NCBI GenBank assembly: GCA_025617745.1
Contig: CM046869.1
Span: 13,163,168 to 13,227,167, forward strand
Length of the DNA: 64,000 nucleotides
Source of the DNA: Heliocidaris erythrogramma
Lineage: Eukaryota; Echinodermata; Echinoidea; Camarodonta; Echinometridae
Reading direction: 5' to 3'
Position numbers and translations under genes: made by a program. Shown here piece after piece: positions 18,227-55,809 of this stretch; within the stretch, counting starts at the first letter, position 1; each line of letters begins with the position of its first letter. The notes beneath the pieces are model-generated. The model was given only the letters and a program-made list of their open reading frames with translations. It did not search any database and had not been told where the DNA came from.

Positions 18227-18726
18227 NNNNNNNNNNNNNNNNNNNNNNNNNNNNNNNNNNNNNNNNNNNNNNNNNNNNNNNNNNNNNNNNNNNNNNNNNN
18301 NNNNNNNNNNNNNNNNNNNNNNNNNNNNNNNNNNNNNNNNNNNNNNNNNNNNNNNNNNNNNNNNNNNNNNNNNNNNNNNNNNNNNNNNNNNNNNNNNNNN
18401 NNNNNNNNNNNNNNNNNNNNNNNNNNNNNNNNNNNNNNNNNNNNNNNNNNNNNNNNNNNNNNNNNNNNNNNNNNNNNNNNNNNNNNNNNNNNNNNNNNNN
18501 NNNNNNNNNNNNNNNNNNNNNNNNNNNNNNNNNNNNNNNNNNNNNNNNNNNNNNNNNNNNNNNNNNNNNNNNNNNNNNNNNNNNNNNNNNNNNNNNNNNN
18601 NNNNNNNNNNNNNNNNNNNNNNNNNNNNNNNNNNNNNNNNNNNNNNNNNNNNNNNNNNNNNNNNNNNNNNNNNNNNNNNNNNNNNNNNNNNNNNNNNNNN
18701 NNNNNNNNNNNNNNNNNNNNNNNNNN
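18227..18726. other. assembly gap (500 N)
   Basis: Exactly 500 unknown bases, a conventional gap size. The true length is unknown. It may hold 5' exons of the MPPE1-like gene. Confidence 0.98.
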
Positions 18727-18998
18727 AAATTCATCAGATTGAACCCATAGTTATTTATATCCTACACAATTTGTTACACATCATAACTGTTTGAAGGGTA
18801 TACTCATTTATATAATCTAGTAATGAATTAGAAGAGTGACTTGCACTTTGGGGGATTTACATGTATCAAAACCTAAAATAGGCTTTTAAAAAGAACAATT
18901 GCTTTTTGTAGCATTTGCAAGCATTCTGTTTCTTCAGTAAAGCAAAAGCTTCCAGCAATTTCTCCTAAGCACCCTTTTCCTTTGGACAATAATTAAAT

Positions 18999-19201
18999 AC
19001 TGTATAAGTGGTTATTTTGGCTGTGGTTTTATTTTCGCGATTTTCGCGAGTCAGTCCTCGCAAAAATTTCCACTTCATATATGGCTGTTTTATAGTAAAG
19101 AAAACATCACAAAGATCGCAAAATTAAACGCTCGCGAATTTTCCCCACCTAGTCCTAAATCGCGAAAAAATCTGTACGCGAAAAACAACCAGCTAACAGT
19201 A
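18999..19201. repeat. foldback MITE, TIR TACTGT, with CGCGAAAA motifs
   Basis: The left end TACTGTATAAGTGGTTATTTT pairs with the right end, whose complement reads TACTGTTAGCTGGTTGTTTTT. Several CGCGA/TCGCG motifs lie inside. It is non-coding. Confidence 0.75.
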
Positions 19202-19614
19202 AAAGGAATTGTGGATAGCATGATGTTGTTGAACCACATAAAAAAAAGAATGTTCATGGGTGACTGGGGTCAGTGAAACATTTTGACAAAAAATGAGTCA
19301 TTTTGTGTGTTAGAGCCAGGGGGGGGGGGGGGGGGGAGGGCACAACTCGCTCTGATTTTTCAACATGACCTATTCTACCAATTTCAAAATCCTATATTAA
19401 AACTATAACTTTAAAAAAATAACTGTTTGAAACACATAATAATTTTGTTATTGTTGTCCAATATTGGTCATGCTCCTGCTTTCACTAATCTGTTTTTTCT
19501 GATTTTTATCCGTTTTCAGAAAAAGTTTCTAGTGTAGTAATAACAGCCGTAGCAGGTAGCAATTTTCTTTTCCCCCATATTTTACAGTAAGTACTTTCTT
19601 TCTTTTTAAATTAG

Positions 19615-20537
19615 GGAATGGCAGATGGAAGAGCTTTTCAGACAGCACTGACTTTATTTTCTCCTGAAGCAGTTTTTGTTGACTTGACTGATGAGGGAAA
19701 ATGGCAGACAATAAGGTGAGAACATGAATTTTGATAGTAATCTTTAGATAAGTTACGCGGGGGGGGGGGAGGAGACACAGTTGCCCTACCCCCAGAAATT
19801 TTAGAAAACCTACTTTTTTATTGCAAATTCTCAGAAATATCCATGAAAATGTGCACCAGATCCTAGATGCATAAAGAACAAAAACAAAATGTCTAGCTCG
19901 CTTCGCTCCCTCACTGACATATATTATCATACATTTTATATATTCTTGCTAAGTGCAGTAATAATATTTTCATACAGAAACATAAATTTATGTGAACAAT
20001 ATCTTGCATGTTCAAATTAAATTAGAATTAAAAAATTGCAAATACAGTGTTGTTATGTTTCAAGATATGGTATCTTCATGGAACAGAAATATTTATGGTT
20101 CATCAGTAGAAGGCCTTAACCTTAAAACAAGGAAAAACAGTTATTTCGAGAAAAGTGATGTTTAATTTTCTATCAAGCCAATCTATTAATTTCTCAGAGT
20201 TTTGGCTTAGTAACAAAGTGTGCTCTTTGACAATAGATGAGCGTTGTTATGCTTTATAGGCAGTAGGAAGCTGAAGTGAGTTAAGACTTTATGGTGTTTA
20301 GAATCTGTTGGTGTTACTGATTATTTAAGTACCAAAAACTCAAAATGGCAAAAAGGGATTTATGTCCTTTTTGTTTTAAACCATCCATGTGTTCTTCAAA
20401 TCTTAATATCCGTTTCCCCTTTTTTTCTGTCAGGAGTTTGAAGCTACAGCCAAGCGTTTCAGGAAGATGTTTCGCCATTCACGAAGTGTTCATTTCAAGG
20501 TCATTGTTGGAAATCATGATGTCGGTTTTCATGACTT
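19615..20537 (+). pseudogene. MPPE1: MPPE1/PGAP5-like metallophosphoesterase, two exons, upstream one decayed
   Basis: MPPE1 (PGAP5) removes an ethanolamine-phosphate from GPI anchors in the secretory pathway. Exon 20434-20537 reads EFEATAKRFRKMFRHS, then HFKVIVGNHDVGFHDF, and matches the family well, including the metal-binding GNHD block. Exon 19615-19715 has GT-AG borders, but compared with the vertebrate protein it is off frame: EWQME and RAFQTAL lie in different frames, the LG before the metal ligand Asp in FILGDxxDEGKW is missing (reads VFVDLTDEGKW), and a further base is lost between KW and the exon end. That is two single-base losses plus six bases. No later exon was found before 23763. 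The copy may be a pseudogene or a fragment; indel errors next to the gap could explain the single bases but hardly the six. Confidence 0.7.
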
Positions 20538-20721
20538 GTGAGTATTCATCATGTAATGGGATATATGATGTATAAAGGAAAGAAAAATATTAGGCATAAT
20601 ATATTAATTGAAAGTCTCGATATCATTAACATATTAGCCAACCTTGTATTATGTTCATGATATGTATATTATTATAATGTTGTATTTTCTCCTAGGCATT
20701 GTGCAAGGATTTTCATATTTT

Positions 20722-21636
20722 TATGCCTCCGCCCACCATAGGTGGTTGCCGGGTCGTCCGTCCGTCCGTCCCGTTTTCGTTCTCGCGATAACTGAAGAAC
20801 CGTTTGACAGATCAAATTCAAACTTGGATCATGAATGCATATAGAGTGACGATTATCTGATTAGTTTTGGGGATATCGAGGTCAAAGGTCAAAGGTCACA
20901 GAGGTCATTGTACTCCTGAAAATAATTCGTTCTCGCGATAACTAGAGAACCGTATGAGGGATCAACTTCAAACTTGGTGCATGTTTGCATATTGGAGTGA
21001 CAATGATCTGATTAGATTTTGGAGTCAAAAGGTCAAAGGTCACAGAGGTCATTGTACTCCTGAAATTAACTCGTTCTCGCAATAACTGAAGAACCGTATG
21101 AGGTATCAACTTCATACTTGGTGCATGTATGCATATTGGAGTGCCAATGATCTGTTTAGATTTGGCAGTCACATGGTCAAAGGTCAAAGGTCATTGTATT
21201 CCTGAAAATACCTTGTTTTTACGATAACTGAAGAACCGTATGAGATATCAACTTCAAACTTGGTGCATGTATGCATATTGCAGTGACAATCTGAGTAGAG
21301 TTGGGATTAATGGGGTCAAAGGTCACATACGACCATTGTATGCATGAAAATCGTTCTCGTGATAAACTAAGGAATCATTTAATGGATGAAATTCAAACTC
21401 GGTTCATGTATGCATGTGACAGTGACTGATCTGATCTGATTTTGGGGTAACGAGGTCAAAGGTCGTAGAGTTCATGGTTCATTTTCACGATAACTTACAG
21501 ATCCAATAGATAAATTAATAGTAATTTTGTTTTGTGAATGCATATGAGTGATAATCTGATTAGATTATGAAAATTTTTGAAGATTTTAGATGTCAACTGG
21601 TCAATATATTTCGGATCTGGCAATGGCGGAGGCATA
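20722..21636. mobile_element. non-autonomous element, TIR TATGCCTCCGCC, with internal tandem repeats
   Basis: The ends TATGCCTCCGCC and GGCGGAGGCATA are perfect 12-bp inverted repeats. Inside are about six degenerate units of 135-160 bp, each with CGTTCTCGCGATAACT, a GAAGAACCGT block, CAAACTTGG, and a GGTCAAAGGTCA-type block. There is no ORF. This architecture is common in marine invertebrate genomes; I do not assign a superfamily. Confidence 0.8.
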
Positions 21637-22583
21637 AATTTAGACTTGGCCCAGTCTAGAATCCATCTAGTTATCTCTGAGTTAAGACTCCACAAACTTG
21701 GCTGATTGTCATCTGCAGTAGATTTAGAACTATTTCGGTCAATTTTCGAGCACGTACATCAGTATTTAGGCATTCCGGTAGTAAATATTCTTGGGTAATC
21801 CCATAAAATATAGCTAAAGGTCAACCTGTACACAAATTTTGGTGGTGCTACTAGGTAGGATGAAGGGTAATCCATGGCTTTTAATTCTACACATTTTTTA
21901 AATTTGCAAATTTGACAGTGTCCTCTGTCAAAACACCTCGCACATTGCATATTGAAGTTGATTTTCTTTGTTCAATCTCTAGAGCAGGTAAAGTTGTATG
22001 ACTGTGGAAAATATGAAATGCTAATCTGTTTTCTTTTTATCAGTTGTAAGCTTTGAAACATGCCTTCAAAATCATTAACTTTTAAGTTAAAGCCATTTTG
22101 GATGTCCCACTGTGCGAGAATACAGACATATTTGTGTAAAAGTACATTTTTAAAAATTTTTTTAGAAAGGATGCAGTTCTTTGAATTTGTAAATAATAAC
22201 AGCCTGACCTCTTTCAATTGAGCTACAATAGCCAATCTAAAATGACAGCTTTATTCCCAATTTTCTGGCTGTGTACTGGTTGTTATGGAAGCCCATATTT
22301 TAGCAACCATTTGACCTTGGAGAAAATATTCAGAACTTTTCGCCAGACACTTTCGGGAATAATTTGAGCAAAACAGGAGAGGTAGGGTTACCTTTTGTCA
22401 ATTTTTTGTTTTTGTTTTTGTTTTTACGTGGATTGACCCTGAAATAACTGCATCAATTTGACCATAAAGAAGTTGCCTTCTGTACAGCTGGGACTTCTGA
22501 CACACTGGTTAGATGGGTATACTAAATTACTGATAACAATAAATGGGTTCCATGACATTTGCTCTGGTCTAACTATGCCATGT

Positions 22584-22637
22584 TAATCCCTAACCTAAAC
22601 CTAACCATAACCCCAATGCTAACCCTAATCCTAATCT
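22584..22637. repeat. degenerate interstitial telomere-like repeat
   Basis: Imperfect CCTAA/CCCTAA units (e.g. CTAACCCTAATCCTAATC). Degenerate and short, so not a telomere. Confidence 0.6.
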
Positions 22638-23205
22638 TCACATTGTCCTGAACAAAAACAAATCATGACCTCGACCTTAACCTTTGACCTTTCGAGATAT
22701 GGACTGTGGAGCAAATGTCGCAGGAGCAAATGTGTCACTGAATAAATGATGATGTATGAATTATGTCTGCTTTTATATCTTAAAGGTGCTAAATTACCAA
22801 GGAGTGGACATTGTCAGTATTGAATGAAGCCTTCCCAATATGCACCTGGAGCTTCACAATTCACGTCTGCACTCCAGGCTTTAGAGCACAGGTTACGTGT
22901 GGTTGAGTTGGCGTAATCTAGAAACTGATAAATACTTACTCATTTTATCTTGAACATAGTTTTGGACAGAATGCAACAAATCTGTGATGTTAATGATTGT
23001 TCTAAGAATTATGCTTCTGCATAAATGACTTTGTATCTGGCTTTGGAGACTGTCAATTTGAGTAGAGAAAAGTTTTTCATTCATACGATTAATTTGATTT
23101 CTGTAATTGTACCTTACAGCTAGACTGGGATATACTTATTGGGATTATCTCATTTTATTGTAGTGTAGATCATTTGTAAATCAGGTTTACATAATGACTG
23201 GTATT

Positions 23206-23497
23206 CTGAAGAGAGGCTAAATCATATCATGGTTTAAATCCATGGTCTAACTGAAGATAGCCAATAATGTCAAAATATTGATTTTTACGTTTATTTTTAC
23301 TGAAATCTGGTGCACTTCAACTGTAAAGGAATTATATTACAAACTACTAATTACCAGAAAGTTATGAATAGTTTGAATACATGCTGATAAATTGAACATT
23401 TAATGTGAGACATTCCATGTCATATTTGACCGCCCGTAGGTAAACCTTGGATTTAAACCTTGGTTTCAGCTAAGCCATGATCAAACCTTCGTTCAGA
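23206..23497. repeat. foldback MITE, family A (diverged copy 2)
   Basis: It shares with 474-785 the order GTATTCTGAA, CATGGTTTAAATCCATGG and a TAGCCAATAATG-like block at the left, with complements at the right (TTTAAACCTTGGTTT, CGTTCAGAA). More diverged than copy 1. Confidence 0.65.
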
Positions 23498-23762
23498 ACA
23501 TGACCAATATGTTTTGGTTACATGGAATCAAGCTTTAATCAAAGGCCTACATGTAGTTAAATACTGTAGGTTGCATTTTCTGTGTTGAATTGTATATGTC
23601 TTACTAAAAAAATAGTGTACTTACATTAAAGTGAGAGCATACCCTGTTGCAAAATGACCTTGACCTTGACCTATGAACCATAATCCATGACTCCTTTGTT
23701 GTACACTAAATAATAGCAACAAAATTACATTACAGGGGTAAGAGAATACCATTTCGAGTAAC

Positions 23763-26700
23763 ATGGCAGTGCCAATGTTTACAAGGAAGCACAGCTCTGT
23801 GTTCGAAAACATTCAAGGTGTTCAGATCTACACTGACCAAGACATCAGAGAAGATATAGTGATTGGCAAGGGAAGTTTTGCAGAGGTCACAAGGGGTACT
23901 ATCATTCAGAACAAGAAAACTATTGCCATTAAAAAACTTGCCACAGCCAATATCCTTCAGCAGAAGCTTTTTGTCAAGGAAATCAACCTGCTAAAGGACC
24001 TAAGTCATGAAAATATTGTTAAGCTCGAAGGTGTCAACATCAGGTCAAGCGCTCTTTTAATTGAATACTGCAGCTTTGACTTCAAGCCATTCAGTGATGA
24101 TAAGGTGGTTAACACACTGGAGCAGCTGCTCCAGGAGTTGGACCAAAGTATGGACTTCCAGGGCTTTGAGCATGCAGTGGTTCACGTTGCCCATGGTGTT
24201 GCCAGTGGACTGTCTTATCTGCATGATAGAGGCATTGCTCACAGAGACCTAAAACCATCAAACATATTAGTGTCAAATGGATACTATGCAGAAGCAGACC
24301 CTGAAGATGTGGCAAAGCAGTTTCAAGAAAACCCTGTCATTGTCAAGCTGACAGATTTTGGAGAGAGTAGGTCAGCTCTCATACAAACAAGAACATTGAA
24401 CATTACAGCATGCAGTAGTTCTTATGATGTTAACAGAGGAACAACAGTGTTTCAAGCACCAGAAATACACATGATATCTGGTACCAGCAAGACTTCCATG
24501 GAAGCACTGCAGCAGATAGACATCTGGGCATTTGGGATGATTCTTTGGTGTTTGACGAATTCTGATCTTGGCTTCCCATATGCAGCGGAAGTGGAAGATG
24601 CTCTGCAGGCTGGCAAAGTGAAAAACCAGCCAGCCTATGTCATTAGTCTACTGAAGAAAGGTATACTGCCAAAGCACAGTGATAAGTACCTGGAGCAAAA
24701 ACAAGGCATCTGGTTGAAGGTCGTTCGGATCATGAATTCTTGCCTCAAGTACAATCCAAGGGAGCGTATTTCTGCACAAGAGGCATCCATCTGTCTTGAT
24801 CCTCACATGGAGAGGCTTCATTGTGCTGTGGACCAAAATAGTATAGATGATGCCAAGGACAGTGCCTTGGCAAGTGGGGGTTTCATCAACCCTAATGACA
24901 ACAGAGGTAGTGTGAATGCTTGCACCTTCCTAGCCATCTTGATTGGTGACAGAGTGCAGGCTAGACTGGAAGAATTGACACCTCAACAGTTGCAAGAGGT
25001 CACAGATGACACAATATTGGAATTTCCACAAGCAGTCAACCAAGCTAGAAGTAGTAGAATGTATGATGTGGAGGAAGCAAGGAACTTGCTCCAAGCTACC
25101 AAAGCCCTCCAGGTTTCATATGAGGTTAATGACCTTGTGCCTGCATACATGGCACTCAGTAGAGAGGATGCTGAGAGAGAACTTGTGCAAGCCATGCAAG
25201 CTGTAATCAGAGCAAGCAGGCAATGCTGTGCCATCTATACAGGTAATGCTTATACATGGCTGCTGCTTTTCCAGAGGGACAGGATCTGTTTGGTGGATAC
25301 TCATCCAGTTGGGCAAAATCACGGAGGTGGTGGTCACGCCATGATATGCTGGTCTAAAGCAAATATAATGGGTTGCCATGCCATTGCACGCTGGCTTCTT
25401 CGTAGGATTGGTTGTGCAAGAGTGCAACATAACTTGGTACAGATGGTTCCTATCTGCAGCTCCACCACATCGGCCAGCAAAATCTCACCAGCCTGCCACT
25501 CACCTGGGGGCAGTTCCATCGCCACATCGACCAACAGTACTTCACCAGCCCACCACTCGCGTGGGGGCAGTTCTATCATAACATCAATGAACAACAAGTC
25601 ACTGGCCAGCCATTCATGTGAGGGCAGCTCTATCATCACATCGGTGAACACCTCACCAGGCCACCACTCACGTGAGGCTAGCCCTATCATCACATTGACA
25701 AATAACAAGTCACCCGCCAGCCACTCACATAGGGGCAGCAGCTCCATCGCCAAATCGGCCAACAAAATCTCACCAGCCCACCACTCGCGTGAGGGCAGCT
25801 CTATCATCACATTGACGAATAACAAGTCATCCGCCAGCCACTCACAGGGTGGCAGCTCCATCGCCACATCGACCAACAGCTCACCAGCCCGCCATTCATG
25901 TGAGGGCAGCTCTATCATCACATCGACCAACAACTCGCCGGCCCGCCACTCACGTGAGGGTAGCTGGAAGACCATTCTTGGCACAGGACCGATTAAAGAA
26001 AAGCAGACTGAATTTTCAGTTTGCCATTGGACTGATTGTGACGTGAACGACATTGAAAAATGCGAGATTCCCTATAATGTTGATGGGCTACAGAAGTTCA
26101 GAATGAAGTGTGATAAAAAGAACATGATGAAAGTCTCAAAAGATGGAAGAAAATGGGGAACGTGGATGAAGTCTTCAAGGAAGGGCTTCAGTGGGATAAG
26201 GCGTATTGCCCATTGCAAGGGATCCTATGAATGCCATCGGGAGAGCTGCAAACTTGATGGCAAACCCAATGATGTTCAGTTTACATCTTTAAATGGGTAC
26301 AAAGTATGTGGCATATGTGGTAGTGTCCCAGAATATGTATCATGTGAAGGGAAAAAATTGTGGGAGCATGACAGTAAGTCAAGCCTCACTATATACTACA
26401 GAGGCAACCATACCTGCAGGGCAATCAAGAAGGTAATCACGAGAAAATCCATGCAGGAACAGCTTAAAGCAAGGCCTGGGGTTCCACCATCCAGGATTAT
26501 TCTGAACAACATGGCTGATTTGATGGCAACGCAAGGCAGTGTCGACTGGAACAAAGTGCAAAGTGTTGCTGACCAGTTTGTGGATCTGAAGGCCATGCAC
26601 AATGAAAAGAGTTTCATGCAGGAGCAGCAATATGTTCATGGTCACAGCTTTGATGCAGTTTGCAAGCTTAAGGATGATACAGACAAAAAAGACAAGTTCT

Positions 26701-28103
26701 TGATTTACAAAGTGAACAATGGTAATATGAACAATGGTTCTCCTTCATATGTCTTCAAATCGAGCAAGGCCATGGCAGAGATTGCTATTCAAATGGACAG
26801 AGATGAGGTTGGGCCTTTACAGTATTCATATGTTCATGTTGATGCCAAACATGATCGGGTAAGGCACATGAAAACCTTAACAATGTGGATAGATCACCCA
26901 GTGTATAGGAAGGTTCTGTGTTTGGCAGTGATGGACGTTGAAAAAGAGAACCATGAGAATTTGGTATTGTTCTGGACCACATTCAACCAAATGCTGGCAG
27001 AGGTAAAGGGTGACAGAGCATACATATTCAACCCCCATGGCTTTGTGGTTGATGAGAATGCAGCTAACTGGAGCAGCATTGAAGAAGTCTTTGGTCCAGA
27101 GGCGGTGAGGCTGAGAACCGTTTCCTGTGAGTTTCACTTTAAGCAAAGTATGGTGAAACACTCCCACAAAGTGACAGATAAAGCTAAATTCAAGGAGATT
27201 GCCACATCTATGCTGCAAGCATGTAGTAAAAGAGACTATGAAACCTATCATGCAGAAATGCAGAGCTTTTCAGCTCAAAATGATGGATGTGTTGATGACT
27301 GGTTGAAATGGTGGCACAAAAGGAGACATCATATCTTCAAGGCTTTCAAGGACCTGGATGCTCCCACTACCAACATAGCTGAAATTGGCCATGCACAGAT
27401 GGGAAATACTGCCGACTCACACATGCTCCTGATCAAAGCTTGCCAATTGGATGTTGGCCATGCCATACGACAGGAGGCCATCCTACAGGCAATTTGTGCA
27501 GGCACTGCTCCCCTTGGGAGGTGTGCAAATATGAAGAAGAGGAGAGACATGTCATATAAAAGACAGATGAAATTTGCAAAGGAGTGTGTGCGAGACATTG
27601 GTATCGCAAACGAGGAAGAGCCCTATGTGCAAAGAAAGGGAAAACATAGACCACCTTCTACACCAGAAAAAAAGAGGAAGAGGGAATCTAACCTGGGATC
27701 TAAGTCTAAGCAACCTAAACCTACTTATGTACCTAGTGAACTTCCACCACTGACTCCAGCTGAAGTACAAGTGCAGGAGAGGCAGTGCTTTGTGGTTGCT
27801 TTCAGGTTTGGAAAAGTTTCAAGGTGCTTTGGCTGTGGTGGTGACATTAAGGCAGGGCATAACCCACCTAATGACATTGTATTACGGAGAAGAGACTACA
27901 GGATGTTCTACAACCCAAAGGCCAAAAAACACCAACGAAAACTTGAATATACTTACTATGACTTCGACATGAGATGTGCAAGGCTTAAATTTGCAGAAAC
28001 ACAAGTGGAAGACATAGTGGTCTGTACAGATACACCCTTCCAAACATCCCACATAGAGAAATTGCATACATTTGGCATACATAAATTGTGTAAACATGAC
28101 TGA
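23763..28103 (+). CDS. protein kinase + C76-like cysteine protease + MULE transposase fusion, 1446 aa
   Basis: Single uninterrupted ORF. Residues 30-350 are a protein kinase with all catalytic marks: GKGSFAEV loop (35-42), Lys57 in IAIKK, HRDLKPSN (160-167), DFG (198-200), APE (232-234), DIWAFG. Residues 372-540 look like a papain-fold protease of the C76/viral deubiquitinase type: Cys387 in NACTFLA, Asp512 and His514 in LVDTHP, then GGGGHAMI. Residues about 555-735 are a repetitive linker. Residues 750-890 are Cys/His-rich (HCKGSYECHRESC, CGICG, YRGNHTC), the DNA-binding part of metazoan MULE proteins. The transposase follows: Asp1027 (HVDAKHD), Asp1097 (VVDENAANW), CEFH (1122-1125) and Glu1207 (IAEIGH). 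The tail is basic, with another Cys pair (CFGCGG). No terminal inverted repeats were found. It could be an autonomous element or a domesticated gene. The kinase and transposase calls are firm, the protease call is moderate. Confidence 0.85.
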   Translation: MAVPMFTRKHSSVFENIQGVQIYTDQDIREDIVIGKGSFAEVTRGTIIQNKKTIAIKKLATANILQQKLFVKEINLLKDLSHENIVKLEGVNIRSSALLIEYCSFDFKPFSDDKVVNTLEQLLQELDQSMDFQGFEHAVVHVAHGVASGLSYLHDRGIAHRDLKPSNILVSNGYYAEADPEDVAKQFQENPVIVKLTDFGESRSALIQTRTLNITACSSSYDVNRGTTVFQAPEIHMISGTSKTSMEALQQIDIWAFGMILWCLTNSDLGFPYAAEVEDALQAGKVKNQPAYVISLLKKGILPKHSDKYLEQKQGIWLKVVRIMNSCLKYNPRERISAQEASICLDPHMERLHCAVDQNSIDDAKDSALASGGFINPNDNRGSVNACTFLAILIGDRVQARLEELTPQQLQEVTDDTILEFPQAVNQARSSRMYDVEEARNLLQATKALQVSYEVNDLVPAYMALSREDAERELVQAMQAVIRASRQCCAIYTGNAYTWLLLFQRDRICLVDTHPVGQNHGGGGHAMICWSKANIMGCHAIARWLLRRIGCARVQHNLVQMVPICSSTTSASKISPACHSPGGSSIATSTNSTSPAHHSRGGSSIITSMNNKSLASHSCEGSSIITSVNTSPGHHSREASPIITLTNNKSPASHSHRGSSSIAKSANKISPAHHSREGSSIITLTNNKSSASHSQGGSSIATSTNSSPARHSCEGSSIITSTNNSPARHSREGSWKTILGTGPIKEKQTEFSVCHWTDCDVNDIEKCEIPYNVDGLQKFRMKCDKKNMMKVSKDGRKWGTWMKSSRKGFSGIRRIAHCKGSYECHRESCKLDGKPNDVQFTSLNGYKVCGICGSVPEYVSCEGKKLWEHDSKSSLTIYYRGNHTCRAIKKVITRKSMQEQLKARPGVPPSRIILNNMADLMATQGSVDWNKVQSVADQFVDLKAMHNEKSFMQEQQYVHGHSFDAVCKLKDDTDKKDKFLIYKVNNGNMNNGSPSYVFKSSKAMAEIAIQMDRDEVGPLQYSYVHVDAKHDRVRHMKTLTMWIDHPVYRKVLCLAVMDVEKENHENLVLFWTTFNQMLAEVKGDRAYIFNPHGFVVDENAANWSSIEEVFGPEAVRLRTVSCEFHFKQSMVKHSHKVTDKAKFKEIATSMLQACSKRDYETYHAEMQSFSAQNDGCVDDWLKWWHKRRHHIFKAFKDLDAPTTNIAEIGHAQMGNTADSHMLLIKACQLDVGHAIRQEAILQAICAGTAPLGRCANMKKRRDMSYKRQMKFAKECVRDIGIANEEEPYVQRKGKHRPPSTPEKKRKRESNLGSKSKQPKPTYVPSELPPLTPAEVQVQERQCFVVAFRFGKVSRCFGCGGDIKAGHNPPNDIVLRRRDYRMFYNPKAKKHQRKLEYTYYDFDMRCARLKFAETQVEDIVVCTDTPFQTSHIEKLHTFGIHKLCKHD
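25434..25970 (+). repeat. coding minisatellite in the kinase-transposase ORF
   Basis: About ten imperfect units of 17-23 codons with the core SPAxHSxxGSSIxTSxN encode a Ser/His/Thr-rich linker between the protease-like and DNA-binding parts. Unit lengths vary by whole codons, so the frame is kept. The complementary strand is also open as a by-product. Confidence 0.85.
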
Positions 28104-28237
28104 AGTTCTTGTGTTCACCACTTACAATACTGACAGTGATACCTGCAACTTCATGAGCCTCACCAGCTCGCTACCCACGTCGGAGGTCACTCATGTTAAG
28201 TCAGTGGCCATTTTCTGGTCACTTCAGCCTCTCCACC

Positions 28238-28847
28238 TTAAAGGGCAAGTCCACCCCAACAAAAAGTTAATTTGAATTAAAAGAGAAAAATTAAACAAGC
28301 ATAACACTGAAAGTTTCATCGAAATCCGATATAAAGTAAGAAAGTTATGGCGCTTTGAAATTTCGCTTATTTAAAAAAAACACAGTTATATGCACAACAG
28401 GGGTGATATGCAAATGAGCGAGCCGATGATGTCACACACTCGCTATTTCTTTTGTATTTTATTATATGAGATACAGAATATTTCAAATATTGCAGTTTTG
28501 TCAATAAGGAAGCTCTTTATTGAATCACAAGATGATGCAAAAAAGGATTTTCCACATGTTCAGAGAGGAATCAAACCTTGTTTAAAATTATAATGCAGAA
28601 AAAAATTATATTTCATATTTCATATAATAAAATACAAAAGAAATAGTGAGTTAGTGACGTCATCGGTCCCCTCATTTCCATACTGACTAGGATGTGCATA
28701 TTACTGTTTCGTGAAATTAAGCGAAACTTTAAAATGTCATAACTTTCTTATTTTATACACGATTTCAATGAAATTTTCAGCATTGTGCTTGTTAGATTTT
28801 TCTTTTTATTCAAATCCATTTTTTGTTGGGCTGGACTTGCCCTTTAA
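28238..28847. repeat. 610-bp full-length foldback MITE, TIR AAAGGGCAAGTCC
   Basis: The two halves are inverted repeats along most of their length, from TTAAAGGGCAAGTCCACCCC at the left to its complement ending CTTGCCCTTTAA at the right. A TTA/TAA at the tips is probably the target duplication. Both arms carry a CATTTGCATA-like and a GATGATGTCAC/GTGACGTCATC block. It begins 135 bp after the stop of the kinase-transposase ORF. Confidence 0.9.
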
Positions 28848-29279
28848 TGAATTTTTCCAATCTGTTCAGATTATATATTTGACTTATCCTCCATCATGTT
28901 TGATTAACAAATCAAAAACACTATGTGAACAGTATTCTGGGCATCTTGCATACAAACAGGTTGATTGTCAAGACCAGGAATTTGGCTTGTGATAGATCTT
29001 TGCTTTTGTCCGGTGTTGCAAAGTCTGTACCAGAGGGACTACCATTCCACTGCATGATTCCCAGATCTCCATATCTATTGTCATAAGTAGATCATCCACA
29101 ATCGATGTGCTTTATCTTGCTCTCTTGCATTGCTGGTTACATAGCACATTGTAGGATAATGTCAGGTTGCTCTTTGTGTTTAACTTGGCAAATACATAAT
29201 TATAGTCAATTTTCTGGCTTTTCCAAAAGCACTCACTGGCATCTTTGACTCTAGTTTTGTGGGTGATATTGCAAGTCCA

Positions 29280-29710
29280 GGATATGCCATTAATGCATTT
29301 TATTCTTCGACAGGGTATGCCATTTGATGGTGCATGTACTTTGTATTGTTATACAGAAGGTGTGATATTTGATGTTATTTTATTCTTAGGGGGTGTTGCA
29401 AAAAAATATTTGCAATCAATTGCAAGTTTCTGTTGCAAATGTACAAGTGATAGATCAATTTTTACTTCTTATTGTAAGAAGCAGACCAGAAAGTACAAAT
29501 TTGCAATTGATTGTGGGATTATGCTTGATTTTGGGACCCAAAATCGATTTGCAATTGATTACAAGTTTCTTGCAATGCTCCATTAGACAGGTTATGCCAT
29601 TTGATGACATTTTATTGTTGTAGAAAGGGTGTGTCTTTTGATGCCTTTGTATTCTTATAGACAGAGTATGCCATTTGATACTACTTTATTCTTGTAGACA
29701 GGGTATGCAG
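29280..29710. repeat. short tandem array with a MITE inserted
   Basis: Units of roughly 45-60 bp with the core GACAGGGTATGCCATTTGATG followed by TTTATTCTTGTA. About five to six units are visible. The array is interrupted by the element at 29398-29581. Confidence 0.75.
29398..29581. repeat. foldback MITE, TIR GGGGTGTTGCAA, inside a tandem array
   Basis: Same family as 16995-17170: the left end GGGGGTGTTGCAA pairs with the right end TTGCAATGCTCC, with ATTTGCAATTGATT subterminal motifs. TTA lies on both sides, and neighbouring array units supply the empty site. Confidence 0.8.
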
Positions 29711-30081
29711 TTGGTGTTCTGTTTGCAACCCAAATTGATATGTAAATTTACCTTGAACCCATTTTTGTACTTGACTCAACTCAAGACTCAACCCTCTTTC
29801 GACCTGACTCGACTCAGGACTCGACCGTTTTTTTACTGAGACACAAACCCTTGTTGACTCCACTCAACCCAACCCCTTTGACTTGACTGCTTTCAGGATT
29901 GTTAAGTACACTATCTAGGGAAAATGGGGAAAATGTATGTATTGTTACCAAGTTCTAATCATTTTCTCATGGATATCAGACTTTTCTAGCATTTTGAATT
30001 TGGAAAAGTGACAAAACTTTGAAATGGTCGAATAGGAATTTTCTATAACAAATAGAAAGTGACCACATAAATTTTAAATAC

Positions 30082-30222
30082 AGTTATAAAAATGATACAT
30101 TAGGGGAAAAGTAAAATCAGAAAAAATTTGGGAAATTCTGTTATATCTAAGGTTATAAGAATGGTACATTAGGGGAAATGTAAAACCAAAAAAAATTCGG
30201 AGAAATTCCATTACATCTATGA
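30082..30222. repeat. two-unit tandem repeat of about 72 bp
   Basis: The block GTTATAAAAATGATACATT...GGGAAATTCTGTTA recurs once with about 85-90% identity. Confidence 0.7.
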
Positions 30223-31950
30223 TTTTATTTCTAGATGAAAAGTGTTTCAGATGTTACACAATGTTAACACTGTCAGTGTCAAGCTAAGTCTTCATTTTAT
30301 CTTATATTCTTTTTTTTTTAATTGTTATTGTGACTAAAATTATCTGTGTCGGTGCATTTAACTTCATTTTAATGATGAATCTGACTATCTGTGCATATTG
30401 CAGCAATTTTAACCATATCTGTAGCCTCTTTTAATCCTTGCAGCAGTTTTTATGGTTAACTGCCTACAGCAACATGATTTGATAGTAATTATTTATTTTA
30501 AATTTTTATATTTAACCTGTTTTTTTGTACCAAACAAATTGCCAAATGTATGAGAAAGTGCATTTAAGGAAGAAAATATGTACAACCTGGGCTTCTAATT
30601 TGTTTCAGATGTTACAAACTTGTTAACATTGTGTGCAAATGACAGCTGGAATTTAGTGTCTTTGACTTTTCCAGACGTTCGTGTAATTCCTATGAGTTCT
30701 GATAAATCTTTGCTCAGACATAATTAACTGAAAAAATTATTACAAAAACAATTATAACTGCCTGCTTTTAAAATCCCAGTTTGATGCAAATTTACACAGT
30801 ATGATAACTAGAACTTGAAGTTCCAGATTGTTACCACTCACTTGCTGTTAATAGAGACCAATGTGTTGTAGTCAGTGCTAATCTCCTGTTGACATAGTTT
30901 CATGCTAATCTGTTATGTATTTAGATATATGTGTAAAGAACAATTGAAGTAGTTATTGATGATGCCTGCATGAAAACTTCAAATGACATGTTGCATTATC
31001 TGAGTTCACTGTTCAGAATTTGGGTTTCTTTGCTTGTTTTACAGGTCTACATTCTGTTTATCTCCTAATACTGCATTTTGCTCCTTTATGAAATTATAGA
31101 AAAAACATTTTATTCCATAGAGGCTAAATGTTTTGCCTTTAATAGGAAACCAAACAACAGATTATTCCTACTCAAAGCTATAATTAGCCAGATAAGCAAC
31201 TAACTTGCCAAAATAGCAATTCAAAGCTGCACTTAGCCACATTGTACAGACCAATCTCTTGTACTTTTCCTTGTTATACATTTGTATGTATTTAAATGTG
31301 AAGAACAAGTACATGTTAACTGATTTCCATTGTTGAGAGTTTAGACAAAACTGGGAAGCTACCATGTTTGGAGATATATTACTCAGTATGCAATTTTGCA
31401 TGTGCTCTATTATCAGCATATCAAGTGTATTACTGTAAAAGTTAGTACAATAAAAATGTTTCTGTTCTTCCATTATTCAAATAGGCAACTTTGGGCATTT
31501 TTTTCCTCCACATTAAAAAAAAAAACCCTGTACTTACAGGAGCTTTTCCTTAACTCTCAAATTCATTACTTTCATTCTTAGAATAGCCTAAAATCAAAGC
31601 TAAGGGACTACATGTATAAAATGCGTGTAAGTTTGACTGTTTCTGTGTAGGTTTGCAAGCGCATGCCTCTTTGTTGATGTGTATGACTTGTGTGCGGGCA
31701 TACAGTTTGTGTACTGTAGCCATTGAAGTTTGAATTGTAAGATTATTTATGCAAATTAGTGTCCATGATTTGTTAAAGCATGTTAATTAGTTTGAGATGT
31801 TAATGCATGTTTGAGACGTTAATATCAGTGTATGACTATGTGTGTATGCATACCGTATGTGCGTGCGTGGGTGTGGGTGTGCTGGTGTGTGTGTGTGTTT
31901 GGGTGTGTGTGAAAGTGTACAGTGTACATGTAAGTGTATAAGGAAGTAAA

Positions 31951-32053
31951 GGTGTAGCCGAGTGGTTTAAGCACTCGACAGGGAATGCGAGGATCGTGGG
32001 TTCGATAACCAGTACGACACTTATGACAATATTATGAATATATTATGAATATA
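31951..32053 (+). repeat. tRNA-derived SINE fragment
   Basis: A-box-like TAGCCGAGTGGTTTAAG and B-box-like GGGTTCGATAACC are spaced as in a Ser/Leu-type tRNA. The acceptor arms do not pair, and the sequence ends in a short direct repeat (ATTATGAATAT twice). This fits a SINE head or old tRNA pseudogene, not a working tRNA. Confidence 0.65.
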
Positions 32054-32681
32054 CATTTACACCTCAAATTTTAGATAACATTGTTTTGTGGGATTTCATG
32101 AAAACTGAAGATTAGAGGAAGAAATTAGAAATCTGGAGAAATAGTTGGTGAACACATCTTTGAAGACCATAAGTGACGAAGTTCAAACAAAGAAAATGGA
32201 ATTGAAAATTTTTATGATTATTGTCAATGATTAAAGGTGCGACCTCGGGCTGGATGATATTAGGCCAAGGTGAAAAGAATATGCAATACTGCACACAACT
32301 ATTGGAGTCAAAGAAATATGAACAATGACGAAGGAGAGCTAGGTGATTAAGGAAAGAAGAAAGATATTAAAAGATAATCAGGAACTTTTACGAAACCATA
32401 TGGATTGAAGGAAAATGAAAACAAAAAATCTTGTGGATTGGTATATGATATACATGTACCAAAATTAAGTCAAGATTTTTGTGAAGGAAAACTGAATAAA
32501 GACGAGTGTTTTGAAGTAGTAAAGGAAATGAAATTCAACTGGAACTGCAATCGTGTCAGAACGATGTGCCCGCAATGATGCCGTGCAGCTTAAAAGAATG
32601 ACAAATGAATATGAAGGAAGAAACTAAGATCAAATGGAATCTATAGGATGATATACAGAAAGTAAAAAGAGAGTGAATAGG

Positions 32682-32786
32682 ATGAAGATGCTGTACGTGA
32701 TTTGTGCATTTATCATTCTGATACAGTTGTCCAACGTGGCTGTCCATAGTAGTTTTGATACAGTTGTCCAACTTGGCTGCCCATAG
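32682..32786 (+). pseudogene. possible signal-peptide ORF disrupted by a 37-bp duplication
   Basis: As sequenced, 34 codons: MKMLYVICAFIILIQLSN, then a changed frame and stop. The N-terminus has the look of a signal peptide. A 37-bp tandem duplication (units starting 32720 and 32757) shifts the frame. With one unit the frame would continue into IEGWTLTGSEYSSPYKL and stop near 32860. I recognise no family and see no supporting exon, so this may be chance. Confidence 0.2.
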
Positions 32787-33012
32787 CATCGAAGGCTGGA
32801 CGTTGACGGGATCCGAATATTCCTCGCCATACAAATTACATGCAAGCAGTTTCAAACTTTAATTCATATTTTCTTTGGACGTACTGGAAAGTTATATGCC
32901 ATGTTTGGTATCAATGGAAAGGGAATTTTATGATTTTCATGCTCTGCTCATTCATGAACACAGAAAATGTAAAATAGCAAAGTTATGGACTAAAATTATA
33001 GAACAATAACAC

Positions 33013-33945
33013 TCCTAAATTGAAACTCGAATGTGTGACTTGAAACTTGAACCCTTGGCTTGAAACTCGAATGTGTGACTGGAAACTCGAATGTGTGACT
33101 TGAAACTCGAATGTGTGGCTTGAAACTCGAATGTGTGACTTGAAACTCGAATGTGTGACTTGAAACTCGAATGTGTGACTTGAAACTCGAACCCTTGGCT
33201 TGAAACTCGAATGTGTGACGGGAAACTCGAATGTGTGACTTGAAACTCGAACCCTTGGCTTGAAACTCGAATGTGTGACTGGAAACTCGAATGTGTGACT
33301 TGAAACTCGAATGTGTGACTTGAAACTCGAACCCTTGGCTTGAAACTCGAATGTGTGACTTGAAACTCGAATGTGTGACTTGAAACTCGAATGTGTGACT
33401 TGAAACTCGAATGTGTGACTTGAAACTCGAATGTGTGACTTGAAACTTGAACTGTTGGCTTGAAACTCGAATGTGTGACTTGAAACTCGAACCGTTGGCT
33501 TGAAACTCGAACTGTTGGCTTGAAACTCGAATGTGTAACTTGAAACTCGAATGTGTGACTTGAAACTCGATTGTGTGACTTGAAACTCGAATATGTGGCT
33601 TGAAACTCGAATTTGTGACTTGAAACTCGAATGTGTGACTTGAAACTCAAACTGTTGGCTTGAAACTCGAATGTGTGACTTGATACTTGAATTTGTGACT
33701 TGAAATTCGAACTGTTGACTCATTACTCGAATGTGTGACTTGACACTCGAACTGTTTACTTGAAACTCAAACTGTTGGCTTGAAACTCGAATGTGTGACT
33801 TGATACTTGAATGTGTGACTAGAAACTCGAATGTGTGACTTGAAACTCGAACTGTTGACTCATAACTCGAATGTGTGACTTGAAACTCGAATGTGTGACT
33901 TGAAACTCGAACTGTTGACTTGAAACTCGAAACTCAAAGAAATAT
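33013..33945. repeat. 20-bp minisatellite, about 46 units
   Basis: The unit CTTGAAACTCGAATGTGTGA has two common variants in its second half (ACCCTTGG and ACTGTTGG). Three units equal 20 codons, so long artificial frames (FEFQVTHSSFKSHIRVSS) appear on the minus strand. The array ends about 8 bp before the 5' edge of a LINE copy. Confidence 0.95.
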
Positions 33946-33952
33946 AACACTC

Positions 33953-35647
33953 GAGATATATTAAGGAGTTTTGGGGGTCTTTGGTTTTAAAAGTTAAAAA
34001 GAAATTGGTTTTATGGGAAGGAAGGGGTTTGACTTTGTTGGGGAAAGTGGGGATTATTAACTCTTGTATATTTTCTTTGTTTTATTATGCGGCAATGATT
34101 TATTTACCAAAGGAGGATTTCTTTCGTGTTACTTTGAGTTTGGTCTTTGAATTTATTTGGGGGAAGAAGACAGAGTTAGTGAAAAGGGACGTTTTTTATT
34201 TAGAGTATAGTAAAGGGGGTTTGGGTTTGGTGAATTTAAAGACTAAGATGGAGTCTTTATTTATTTGTAATATGTTTCCGTTTTTATCGGATGTAGACAA
34301 TGCTTCAGTGAACTTTATGTTGTTTCGATATTTTATGGGTTGTAGTTTAAGAGTTCAGTTTCCTTTTTTGTACAATAATTTAGTTCCACATTCCGATCGT
34401 TTATCTGTTTCGTATCTTTCTGCTTTAGGAATTATTAAGTATTTGTTTTCAATTAATCAGTCTTTTATGTATAAATCGGTTAAAGAGGTGGCCAATCTGC
34501 TGGTTCGGGCCGAGTGCACACCACGTGTGGTCTCGGCCCGACCCCGCGATTGGGAGACAGTCTTTTGTATGATTTTCCACCCTTTGTTATGTAATGTTTT
34601 GAAATCGTTTTGTTGGAAATTTGTTCACGAAGCTTTTGTCACGGGGGTTAAACGTTTACGTTGGGGGTTGGGGGATGGGAAATGTTGTTTTTGTTCTCGT
34701 TTTGAAGGTTTACATCATATTCTTTGGGAATGTAACTCTGTTTATATCATTTTATGTTGGGTTTATAAGGTTACGGTTAAGTTGATAGGAACACAAGTTA
34801 TGTTTAATGAGAATTTATTTTTATATGGTTGTTCAAATATTCATTTAGACGCTTCTGTTTGGGCAAGGGTTTGGTTTATTTATATTATTGTTAAGAAATT
34901 ATTATGGAGGCGGCGATGTATGTTTAGGTTTGATAAACAGTTTATGTCTGAAGATGAATTTTTTGTTAGAGTGAAGGACGAAATTCAGTTACGTCTACTT
35001 ATTGATTTGAGGAGGTGGTCGCGGGATAAGTTTCGTAAAATTTGGGTTGAAGGGGGGAGTTTTTGTAAAGTTTTAGGGGATGATGTTTTGTTACTTTTGC
35101 CATAAAAACAGGCTTCGGATGTGAATGAGAAGGAAGAAAAGTGGCCGGGTTATGGGAGCGGTGTAAGAGTTGTGTATGTGAGTGCGTGTATAAGAGGAAT
35201 GTGAGGTAAACCCGGGATTTGAGAGTATGGTTTGAGAGTGTTTGGGTTGAGCGTGGCGTGGCGTCGCGGGGAGCTGTCATGTGTGGGAATTGACCGGGGT
35301 GGCTGTCGGTGTCGACAGTCCCTGGTCTTTTCTCCCTTGACGGTTTCCCTTGACGCCATGGTGAATGATAGTGTGTGTACAAGTGGAGATTGAGAGTTTC
35401 TTATGAACGAGTGGTTTTTTGTGTGTAAGTTGCCGAGGCATGTTTTCTAGTGGGTTATGTAAATTATAATTTGATTAATGTTAATAGATCACCACCTCAA
35501 TATTTGTTATATATTACTTTGTTTACAATGTTTCATTTACAGTATACTGTCTATACTGTACTTTGTATTTATATTGTTTGCATTTTTTGTAAATATGTAA
35601 ATAAGAGAATATATGTAAATAAAACAGGTAATTGTACCTGAAAGAAA
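33953..35647 (+). mobile_element. U2-targeted LINE copy 1, 5'-truncated (Tx1/Keno type)
   Basis: It holds the last third of ORF2 (open from 33981 to 35105: RT thumb region and C-terminal domain with CCFCSRFEGLHHILWEC, a C-x2-C-x7-H-x4-C knuckle) plus the 3' UTR. The 3' end (GTACCTGAAAGAAA) joins U2 at AGTATCTG (35648). Sequence 33953-34550 and from about 35035 to the end is almost identical to LINE copy 4; the stretch between is clearly diverged. The 5' flank is minisatellite, not U2. Confidence 0.92.
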
Positions 35648-45031: not shown

Positions 45032-48000
45032 TTAAAATAAACTTCCAGCTTTTCCAAAATGAACAAAAAGTTTAATCTCTTTAAGATATTCTATTATATT
45101 TGATTGAGGAATATCTCTGAATAATGTCTTCAAGTCGGTAACAGTATAGTACTTGGTTCGAATTGGAGAAAAATCAACACAATCAAGAAGAATGTGTTTA
45201 ACTGTGAGTGGGCAGTTACACGGTATACAGCTACAGCTTTAAGTAAATATGATTGTGTTAAATATGTATGACCAATACGAGCCCTGGTCAAAACAATGTC
45301 CTCTCTCCGGCGAGACAATGGAGATGTGTGGCGAGGTTCAATGGAAGGTTGAAGTTGATAGAGTTTATTCTTGGGATGAGAGTTCCATAATGCTTGCCAT
45401 TTCTTTTTAATGTAACTGTTGATCTTTGTTCTTAAATCACTGCAAGGGATGTGGATATTTGTAATATCCTCATTTAAAGTTTCTCTTGCCAACCTATATG
45501 CAGTTTCATTACCTTTAATACCTGTATGACTTGGAATCCAAGCAAAAATTACACTTTTCCCCATAGCATTTATCTTAAACTGTGTTTTTAATAATTGACT
45601 AACATATGGGTGTTTATGACATCTTCCCTGTATTGCCGTTAAGCTCGACAGGGAATCTGTAAAAATGATGAAACGCTGTTCATCACAGATTTCTATAATA
45701 TCAAAAGCTATCCCTAGAGCCACTAACTCGGCAGAAAATATAGATGACCTATCTGGCAATCTTATTTGTACTTGCAACGAACTGCTTGTAGCTGCTGCAC
45801 CTACTTTATTTTGAAACTTTGACCCATCTGTATAAATTGCACGATAGTTAAAATATTTATTCTTAAGTTCAAAAAATGCATTTTGGAAAACTAAATCACT
45901 AACGGTGCCCTTCTGGAATTCATTTAGTGTCAAGTGTATTACTGATTCACTAATTATCAAAGGTGGAATATTGGGAACCAAAAAAGGAGCTATCTTATCA
46001 TTAGTTAGTATCTGTAAGAAAGCTTCTTTGATACGAAAGCCAAAAGGTCGAATTGCTGACGGTTTACTAGTGTAGAAATTAATGAATGGTGGTACAAATG
46101 TACCTTCATATGTTGGGTTTCGAGGGTTATTTTTCAGTTTCAGTGCGTATTGTAATGATAGTTTTTCATATCTCAAAAATAATGGAGGTTCATTGGCCTC
46201 TATATAGAGACTCTCCATAGGGGAAGTACGATACGCCCCAAGACTAAGCCGGAGACCTTGGTTCTGAATAGGTATCAGCTTTTCAAGGTAAGATTGTCTA
46301 GCAGAGCTATACACTGCACAACCATAATCTAATTTTGATCGGACTAATGATCGATAAAGACGGAGCAATACGATACGGTCAGCTCCCCAGTCCATTTTTT
46401 GATACTACCTTCAAAAGTGTTAAGGTTTTATGACATTTTTTCCCAACATAGTCAATATGGGCTTTAAAATTAAGTTTATTGTCAAAAATTAAGCCAAGGT
46501 AATTGGTTTGTTCAACTATGGGAATAAAAGCATCATTAATACTTATTTGAGGATCTGGATGTATTGATCGTTTATTACAAAAGTGTACACAGACTGTTTT
46601 CTTTTTTGAAAAGCGGAAGCCGTTCTCATCAGCCCACTTCTCTATTCTGTTAAGACAATTTTGTAATAGTCTCTCAATAACGGGTATTTGTGTTGATGAA
46701 CAAGAAATTGAAAAATCATCTACAAATAATGATCAAATCTAGGGTTTACAGCATCAACGATACTATTTATTTTAATTAGAAATAGGGTAACAGAAAGTAT
46801 ACTACCTTGAGGGACACCCATTTTCTGATTATGTAATTCAGAAATTGAGGTCCCAAGTCGAACTCTAAACACACGATGTGAAAGGAAACTCTCAATAAAT
46901 TTGGGTAACCTGCCCCTCAACCCAAAATTATAAAGATCTTTAAGGATTCCATACTTCCAAGTTGTGTCATAAGCCTTTTCAAGGTCAAAGAATATTGAGA
47001 CAACATGGTGACCTCGGGCCATACCATTTCGTATAAAAGATTCAAGATGGATAAGTTGGTCAGTTGTAGTACGATTATGCCTAAAACCGCTTTGACATTC
47101 AGTTATCAAATGATTTCTTTCTAAAAAACCAAACTAGGCGAGCATTAATCATTTTTTCCATTGTTTTACATAGGCAACTAGTAAGAGAAATAGGACGGTA
47201 ATTTGTTGGGTTAGATGCATCTCTGCCAGGCTTTATGATGGCTCGGGCCTTTGCTCGTGCTTCTTGATATTTTATTAAATTATTTTTGGTAGGTTGTTTC
47301 TTGAATTTCCTTAGTGCCCTTTTCCGGCATTTAACTGCTTCTTTGCATTCTATATTAAACCAAGGGTTATGTTTATTATGCAGGGTGCTAGAAGACTTGG
47401 GAATCGTCTTGCTAGCTATGTCAAGTAATGTGTCTGTGAACAGTGTCAAACGATCTGCGATGTTCACAAAACGTTCCTTAGTAATATGTCTGCACTGTGT
47501 TATGAAATCACCCCAATTTGCCTTTTGAAGTTGCCACTTTGGAATTCTTTCTTCTGGTATTGGTTTAATAATGTCAATAAAAATAGGAAAATGATCACTT
47601 CCACACTGATCATTATGTATCTGCCAGTGAAAATCCATAAAAATATTTGCTGAACATATTGATAAATCAATAGCCGATGTGGAACCGGAGGCAGGGTGAA
47701 GATATGTACAAGATTCATCATTTAAAGGCATAAATCAAAGTTTTCAATTATTATTTCTAATATATTGCCGAGTCTATTTGACTTCTGGCATCCCCAAAGA
47801 GTACTATGAGCATTAAAATCTCCTAATAGGACAAATGGTTCAGGAAGTTGATCAACTAGTTTATTTAATTCATTTTGTGTCAATTCAAACCTTGGAGGAA
47901 TATAAATTGAACAAATAGTAACTGTACGATGGAGTGTTGTTTTAACCGCTACAGCCTGAATGCAAGTATCAAGTCTAATCCTTTCATGTGGAATTCCTTT

Positions 48001-48069
48001 CTTTATTAGAATAGAGGAGCCTGCAATGGGCCTATCATCTATCAGAGATTTATTGGTTTTGCTATACAT
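45032..48069 (-). pseudogene. LINE ORF2 remnant: endonuclease, RT and RNase H
   Basis: Frames in order: 48069-47722 endonuclease middle (LLGDFNAHSTLWG), 47731-47099 (CGSDHFPIF, the SDH box), 47109-46720 RT (SGFRHNRTTTDQL, FFDLEKAYDTTWKYG, GVPQGSILS), then a disrupted stretch holding the FxDD region, 46395-45130 with the RT end and RNase H (IYTDGSKFQNKVGAA, FTDSLSSLTAIQ, IPSHTGIKGNETA). The last residues continue in another frame to a stop at 45032. At least four frame breaks, so inactive. Confidence 0.85.
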
Positions 48070-48257
48070 ATCATAACCCTTAAATAAATTTTTTGTCTGA
48101 ATCTTTTAAAAGTGTTTCTTGCAAACAAATTACATAAGGGTTATGATTAATTAGGAGACACTTAATTTCCTCATAATTGGGTTTAAGCCCACGACAGTTC
48201 CATTGCAGAACTGCCTTTTCTGTTTGAGTCAGCATTATGTGACTCGTTCATTAGTCT

Positions 48258-54531: not shown

Positions 54532-54559
54532 ATCGCTTCTCGGCCTTTTGGCTACGATC
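54532..54559 (+). pseudogene. U2 snRNA, first 28 nt (locus 4)
   Basis: U2 nucleotides 1-28 with one change (GGCTACGATC for GGCTAAGATC). The intact LINE follows directly. Confidence 0.93.
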
Positions 54560-54568
54560 GAATACATC

Positions 54569-55768: not shown

Positions 55769-55809
55769 ATAACATGTAGTTTATTTTTGTAAACCCACGA
55801 GTGATTTGA

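Follow-up and report, generated by a model that had tools for sequence, protein, structure and literature searches.

A recently mobile 27.6-kb Mutator-like transposon from an echinoid genome, whose transposase gene appears to include a kinase and a deubiquitinase-like protease

Mutator-like elements (MULEs) are characterized by a D-D-E transposase core with a CxxH motif, a Cys/His region preceding this core, inverted ends and 9-bp target-site duplications (PMC6446971), and complete arthropod MULEs have been reported to span 1.4-10.0 kb (PMC13359780). Some plant representatives, e.g., KAONASHI, combine the MULE with a ULP1 protease, that is, a cysteine protease of the ubiquitin-like-specific kind (PMC2528002). 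A different protease, the viral-tegument-like deubiquitinase (VTD), is found in the DNA transposons Helitron and Helentron, where it has been suggested to protect against ubiquitin-dependent degradation, and cnidarian VTDs are fused to several transposon-associated domains, which may include relatives of the VTD described below (Erven et al. 2022, PMC9741609). These systems are taken here as they appear in the cited parts of each source. In the present work we analyse a stretch of 64,000 nucleotides of Heliocidaris erythrogramma (assembly GCA_025617745.1, contig CM046869.1, positions 13,163,168 to 13,227,167; hereafter the window, whose own coordinates are used throughout), which holds an open reading frame (ORF) that has something of each of them: the MULE features just listed, a protease of ubiquitin-like-specific kind next to a MULE as in KAONASHI, and the Cys plus Asp-x-His triad, spacing and location in a DNA transposon ORF of the Helitron/Helentron VTDs, with a predicted fold that may resemble theirs.

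With a probability of about 0.72, we read this ORF as the transposase gene of a recently mobile, giant (27.6 kb) Mutator-like transposon, in which a kinase, a VTD protease and a D-D-E transposase would form one polypeptide and the accessory enzymes would serve transposition. The initial annotation had proposed a 1446-codon open frame fusing a kinase, a protease and a transposase; on re-reading, the ORF has the same span and no internal stop, and its three parts lie in one frame, in an order that is repeated in other copies. Its features are the following:

23763..28103, plus strand: 1446-residue ORF, kinase, VTD-like protease, repeat linker and MULE-like transposase (translation)
23859..24785, plus strand: protein kinase domain with catalytic residues in place (PF00069, E 1.4e-37)
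24879..25442, plus strand: VTD-like domain (motif, relative on contig C2, predicted fold)
24921-24923, 25296-25298 and 25302-25304, plus strand: codons of the putative VTD catalytic residues Cys387, Asp512 and His514, respectively
25466..25965, plus strand: in-frame tandem repeat linker between protease and transposase, 57-bp units, rich in Ser, Thr and His (repeat analysis, translation)
26055..26430, plus strand: Cys/His-rich region upstream of the transposase core (26055-26237 has 59% identity over 61 residues to the C2 relative)
26832..27383, plus strand: MULE-like core, D1027, D1097, CxxH 1122-1125 and E1207 (PF10551 on a cut region, hhalign, motif positions)
27777..28082, plus strand: C-terminal Cys-containing domain, common to other transposase-like ORFs of the genome (identity search, hhalign)

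The kinase part matches the Pfam family Pkinase (PF00069) over residues 33-341, scoring 130 bits where the cut-off is 31.7. The glycine loop (from residue 34), Lys57, Glu73, HRD (160-162), Asn167, DFG (198-200), APE (232-234), Asp253 and Arg335 could all be located, and we take them to have the catalytic roles usual for these motifs; match and positions thus agree with the earlier description of a kinase with every catalytic residue. The genome (1.06 Gb in 26 contigs; all element copy numbers given here are lower bounds) was searched for this part exon by exon, with the best candidates scored, a procedure that an intron-split donor kinase could escape. The 24 matches comprise 10 full-length ones at 100% identity (the window included), 9 pieces of the copies named C4a, C16 and C18b, and 5 other kinases with 25-36% identity, the best of which by E-value has 30% over 138 residues. 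Is the kinase, then, a separate gene misjoined to the protease by the assembly, as had been considered from the start? The kinase stands before the protease in ten other places (two of them halves of a single insertion), being 100% identical over 356/356 residues in nine and 98% over residues 36-356 in the tenth, so that in the window it is not.

Regarding the protease part, Cys387 and the Asp512-x-His514 pair are separated by 125 residues from Cys to Asp, within the VTD range of about 120-130, and a predicted structure appears compatible with the VTD fold. A structure predicted from the VTD sequence alone, with pLDDT 38.4, was set aside. Pfam gave no match for this part up to E 5, two sequence searches of the PDB each had an unrelated protein as best match (E 4.8 and 0.87, respectively), and a search of viral contigs with the VTD part had no notable match. 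The Cys/Asp-Thr-His protease-like region of the initial annotation therefore stands by motif and predicted fold and lacks a sequence-profile match, "C76" having been that annotation's own label; likewise, the fold expected in residues 372-540 is supported by the prediction and found by no sequence profile. We regard this part as a probable ubiquitin-removing protease.

Like the protease, the third part owes its name to evidence other than sequence profiles. The D-D-E residues D1027, D1097 and E1207 are present, with C1122 and H1125 forming a CxxH after the second D. PF10551 had no match either in the whole ORF (E <= 1) or in the 717-residue transposase part (E <= 5), and in a 233-residue cut it covers model positions 2-98 of 99 with E 0.046 and 14.6 bits, under the cut-off of 27.6. 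The unrelated family Bet_v_1 outscores it there (E 0.0063 and 16.9 bits, also under its own cut-off of 22.4), mostly on residues immediately past the MULE match. When compared by hhalign with six MULE ORFs drawn from the 31 PF10551 matches in the genome, only the stretch from the second D to the CxxH aligns (40 columns, E 0.042, probability 1.2%). Profile evidence by itself is insufficient for a MULE assignment. GAG-type ends are MULE-like, and it is the D1027/D1097/CxxH/E1207 set, together with the 9-bp duplications and inverted GAG ends described below, that points to the Mutator superfamily; the MULE transposase of the initial annotation is hence retained on motifs, ends and duplications, with its profile match below cut-off. 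Searching the genome with the transposase part gave 24 matches, namely 9 full-length at 100%, 8 fragments from four broken copies and 7 remote relatives. The C-terminal domain recurs with 34-35% identity at 5 other genome places (hhalign E 3.1e-11), and the Cys/His-rich region before the core has no Pfam match, being FLYWCH/WRKY-like by eye only. Two of the ORFs that have this C-terminal domain in common with the element protein, L043:174-2972 (minus strand, 932 residues) and L044:309-3011 (plus strand, 900 residues), are 57% identical to each other; by eye they show D, D, CxxH and E plus a SWIM-like pattern, and they have no significant Pfam match.

The frame did not arise by chance, since the protease part is identical over 205/205 residues in 12 of the 13 genome places where it occurs. 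The remaining one is 89% identical over residues 1-190, and its reading as a diverged lineage was rejected, its DNA being 99.75% identical over 6.3 kb, with indels. Compared with the window, the 12 other places have 1 to 13 substitutions and 0 to 13 indels (over about 10 kb in 8 of them and 6.3-9.9 kb in 4). A 1453-codon frame (the 1446 plus 7 upstream codons) is uninterrupted in 6 of the 13 places, and the breaks in the others may be assembly errors or true decay. At position 28024 the window base is unique, all 12 other places agreeing on another one, which by hand translation gives Cys1421 in the window versus Tyr.

Apart from these near-identical copies, one diverged relative was found, on contig C2, with a weak kinase remnant followed by the protease and transposase parts in the same order. 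Its aligned VTD and transposase stretches are 26-59% identical to those of the element, and the VTD Cys and Asp-x-His are kept, with about 123 codons and a frameshift between them. Third codon positions vary most (61 and 20 codons only), and over the 61 codons dN (the nonsynonymous rate) is 0.38 and dS (the synonymous rate) not computable; this pattern, in a small sample, fits selection preceding decay. The age of the three-part fusion would rest on this single decayed relative.

These data bear on the alternative that the kinase and the protease are mere passengers, captured long ago and in frame, with no use in transposition. MULEs often capture host sequence, and receptor kinase insertions are common in those of maize (PMC8647823, in the part cited). 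Moreover, the element carries a decayed metallophosphoesterase fragment:

19615..19715, plus strand: metallophosphoesterase exon fragment (PF00149 when joined with the second, splice-like borders by eye)
20434..20537, plus strand: second metallophosphoesterase-like exon fragment, with GNHDVGFH (same joined PF00149 match)

Joined, both fragments match PF00149 with E 0.0038 and 18.1 bits, under the cut-off of 21.5, and they are presumably MPPE1-like; 19615-20537, consisting of two decayed splice-bordered exon fragments and the intron between them, is an apparent host gene capture. When all six frames of the 27.6-kb element were scanned for codon usage, two frames outside the main ORF, of 189 residues (25.0, Gly-rich) and 120 residues (15.2), outscored this fragment (10.9) and were unconvincing by eye as further cargo; the Pfam check for cargo covered parts of 4 of the 294 element pieces, including the two joined as the metallophosphoesterase peptide, and the element may thus carry more. 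What speaks against mere passengers is that the ORF has lost neither the catalytic residues of the kinase nor the VTD triad, and that the VTD motifs are kept in the C2 relative with its third-position variation, so that we regard this alternative as unlikely. Quite unlikely, too, is that the protease part would be a self-cleaving processor of the YopT/AvrPphB kind, which would detach the kinase from the transposase post-translationally, given that the present Asp-x-His is invariable in VTDs (PMC9741609, in the part cited), whereas proteases of the YopT type use a conventional Cys-His-Asp.

Returning to the reading of the ORF as the transposase gene of a mobile element, its extent could be established with a complete copy on contig C9, of 27,587 bp, which starts with GAGAATTTCTAACC and finishes with AAATATAACACTC. 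The window holds the following parts of it:

18227..18726: 500-N assembly gap (sequence)
18727..33952, plus strand: right 15.2 kb of the about 27.6-kb element (99.5% identity over 18727-33953 to the C9 copy)
33020..33931, plus strand: 3' subterminal minisatellite, 20-bp unit x 45.6, stopping 21 bases short of the element end (repeat analysis)
33873..33952, plus strand: 3' terminus, an imperfect terminal inverted repeat whose 5' counterpart lies outside the window (end alignment on the C9 copy)
33953..33961: presumed right-hand target-site duplication, GAGATATAT (inferred from other copies; left copy not seen)

Only 18727-33952 of the window is element, since the DNA to the left of the gap is non-element, having no match to the C9 copy; the left part of about 12.4 kb is missing there. 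Terminal inverted repeats and duplications of 8-11 bp had been proposed as a check, and both were found, the repeats being imperfect and the duplications of 9-10 bp. The ends of the C9 copy align as inverted repeats over about 80 bp with a score of 26 (which includes a contribution from a subterminal motif present at both ends), whereas 500 pairs drawn at random from inside the element average -12 and reach 5 at most. Both ends bear subterminal tandem repeats, with units of about 262 bp on the left side and of 20 bp on the right side. The left 1.7 kb of the C9 copy holds 12 occurrences of the motif CGAGTTTC and the right 1 kb another 35, inverted, with none between. Inside the element there are also a tandem array of 144-bp units (20777-21475) and, right after the ORF, a long imperfect palindrome (28238-28847; arms of 51, 103 and 100 nt, 79-88% complementary; termini TTAAAGGGCAAGTCC and GGACTTGCCCTTTAA), present in the other copies compared, which looks like a miniature inverted-repeat transposable element carried by the larger one. 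A tRNA-like stretch seen by eye near 31955-32025 was unsupported by ARAGORN.

The junctions of the copies carry the case for mobility. Nine right ends were newly fetched: end and flank were read in six (C3b, C4a, C7, C13b, C16 and C18b), C18a has N directly after CTC, and in C4c and C13a the element end was absent from the 500 bp fetched. Including the window, C9 and C4b, the exact 3' end (AAATATAACACTC) is present in ten places, with nine readable flanks, all different. Among five left ends newly fetched, those of C3a, C7 and C18a were found and those of C13b and C4c were not, 415 bases of the C4c fetch reading N. The apparent 5' truncation of C4a, C16 and C18b was rejected as biology, as all three start at 500-N gaps. 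Both ends could be read at five sites, and every one of these has a target-site duplication, of 9 bp at four (one side of one reads 10) and 10 bp at one:

C9: GGGAATTGA
C4b: GGGACATAGG
C3: GTGTGACTG
C18: GCATCTCAC
C7: left TTCTTTGGA, right TTCTTTTGGA

For C3, the left and the right end were read at two different places (C3:33669182 and 33685924, respectively), separated by 16.7 kb, and for C18 they come from two places in opposite orientation (C18:5597533 and 5658273). As the members of each pair have a common duplication, each pair is most likely one insertion split by scaffolding, and the 13 places therefore amount to about 11 insertions. As far as sequence can tell, the element has transposed very recently, on several chromosomes, in agreement with the mobile element first proposed. 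That the copies are an assembly artefact of a single locus could be suspected from the 500-N gaps adjoining several of them and from the C3a/C3b and C18a/C18b pairs being one insertion each, but nine right junctions with the same CTC end and differing flanks, and five sites with their own duplications, make this very improbable. A host gene domesticated from a transposase, the alternative offered by the initial annotation, would suit a long and intact frame and is hardly credible for thirteen near-identical places (about 11 insertions) with an exact 3' end in ten of them and duplications at 5/5 sites.

How would such a protein work? The transposase would bind the subterminal repeats, whose CGAGTTTC motif points one way at the left end and the other way at the right, cut at GAG/CTC and insert with a 9-bp stagger. 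The VTD would strip ubiquitin, most simply from the transposase or its complex, whereby a large and tightly controlled protein could escape degradation, and the kinase could phosphorylate its own protein, for which the Ser/Thr-rich repeat linker offers itself, or else host factors present where the element inserts, thus timing or licensing transposition. Any action of the enzyme parts on host proteins is something we infer. A bolder version, which we put forward tentatively and hold to be rather less than probable, is that of a giant MULE of animals with a transposase that does its own signalling, with an active deubiquitinase preventing degradation and an active kinase targeting linker and host factors, so that the element sets the time and place of its jumps. 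If true, the self-signalling transposase would be an element-encoded reply to post-translational host control, retained over long descent.

In the rest of the window, a frame directly past the right end of the element (33981-35105) has a weak zf-RVT match (E 0.0016, below cut-off), and the element may therefore have inserted into a retroelement. Farther on lie retroelement pieces on the minus strand (45130-49242), with RNase H, endonuclease/reverse transcriptase and zinc-knuckle in separate frames (the last two weak), and a non-LTR (long terminal repeat) retrotransposon (54494-59217), in which a CCHC zinc-knuckle ORF precedes a 1115-residue endonuclease/reverse transcriptase ORF (RVT_1, E 5.4e-36).

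Compared with the MULEs of PMC6446971, the element differs in its 27.6 kb, its weak PF10551 match and its kinase and VTD domains, which are not named in the part cited. Rehavkus, compared by its description only, resembles it in having 9-bp duplications and, immediately ahead of the 3' inverted repeat, a minisatellite (PMC6446971, in the part cited); the PHD finger described for it had no Pfam match in the whole ORF (E <= 1) or the transposase part (E <= 5), and the element is consequently not assigned to it. With Pack-MULEs it has in common the host-gene fragments with splice-like borders, but none of those of Jiang et al. 2004 exceeds 7 kb (PMC6431247, in the part cited), while the present element has 27.6 kb and looks autonomous. 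KI-MULEs use another protease family, with the ULP domain reversed relative to mudrA, and the cited part of PMC2528002 leaves a kinase unmentioned. The word "kinase" is absent from the main texts of the arthropod and eukaryote surveys (PMC13359780 and PMC6446971), as are "kinase", "MULE" and "Mutator" from that of PMC9741609, and our literature searches, which covered open-licence text of PubMed Central (RepBase being outside this scope), brought up no MULE that carries a VTD, nor one in which a kinase is joined to its transposase. Accessory domains in transposons usually resemble captured scraps. In this case the transposase is joined to two signalling enzymes that look intact, and very recent transposition of the element has spread them; its copies, young and nearly identical, recommend it as a candidate for an animal MULE that still works. 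The Helitron/Helentron carriers of VTDs, unlike this element, are rolling-circle transposons with a C-terminal AP-type endonuclease (PMC9741609, in the part cited). The element would thus extend VTD deubiquitinases from rolling-circle to cut-and-paste transposons, and it makes testable whether transposons bring their own tools against ubiquitin-based control.

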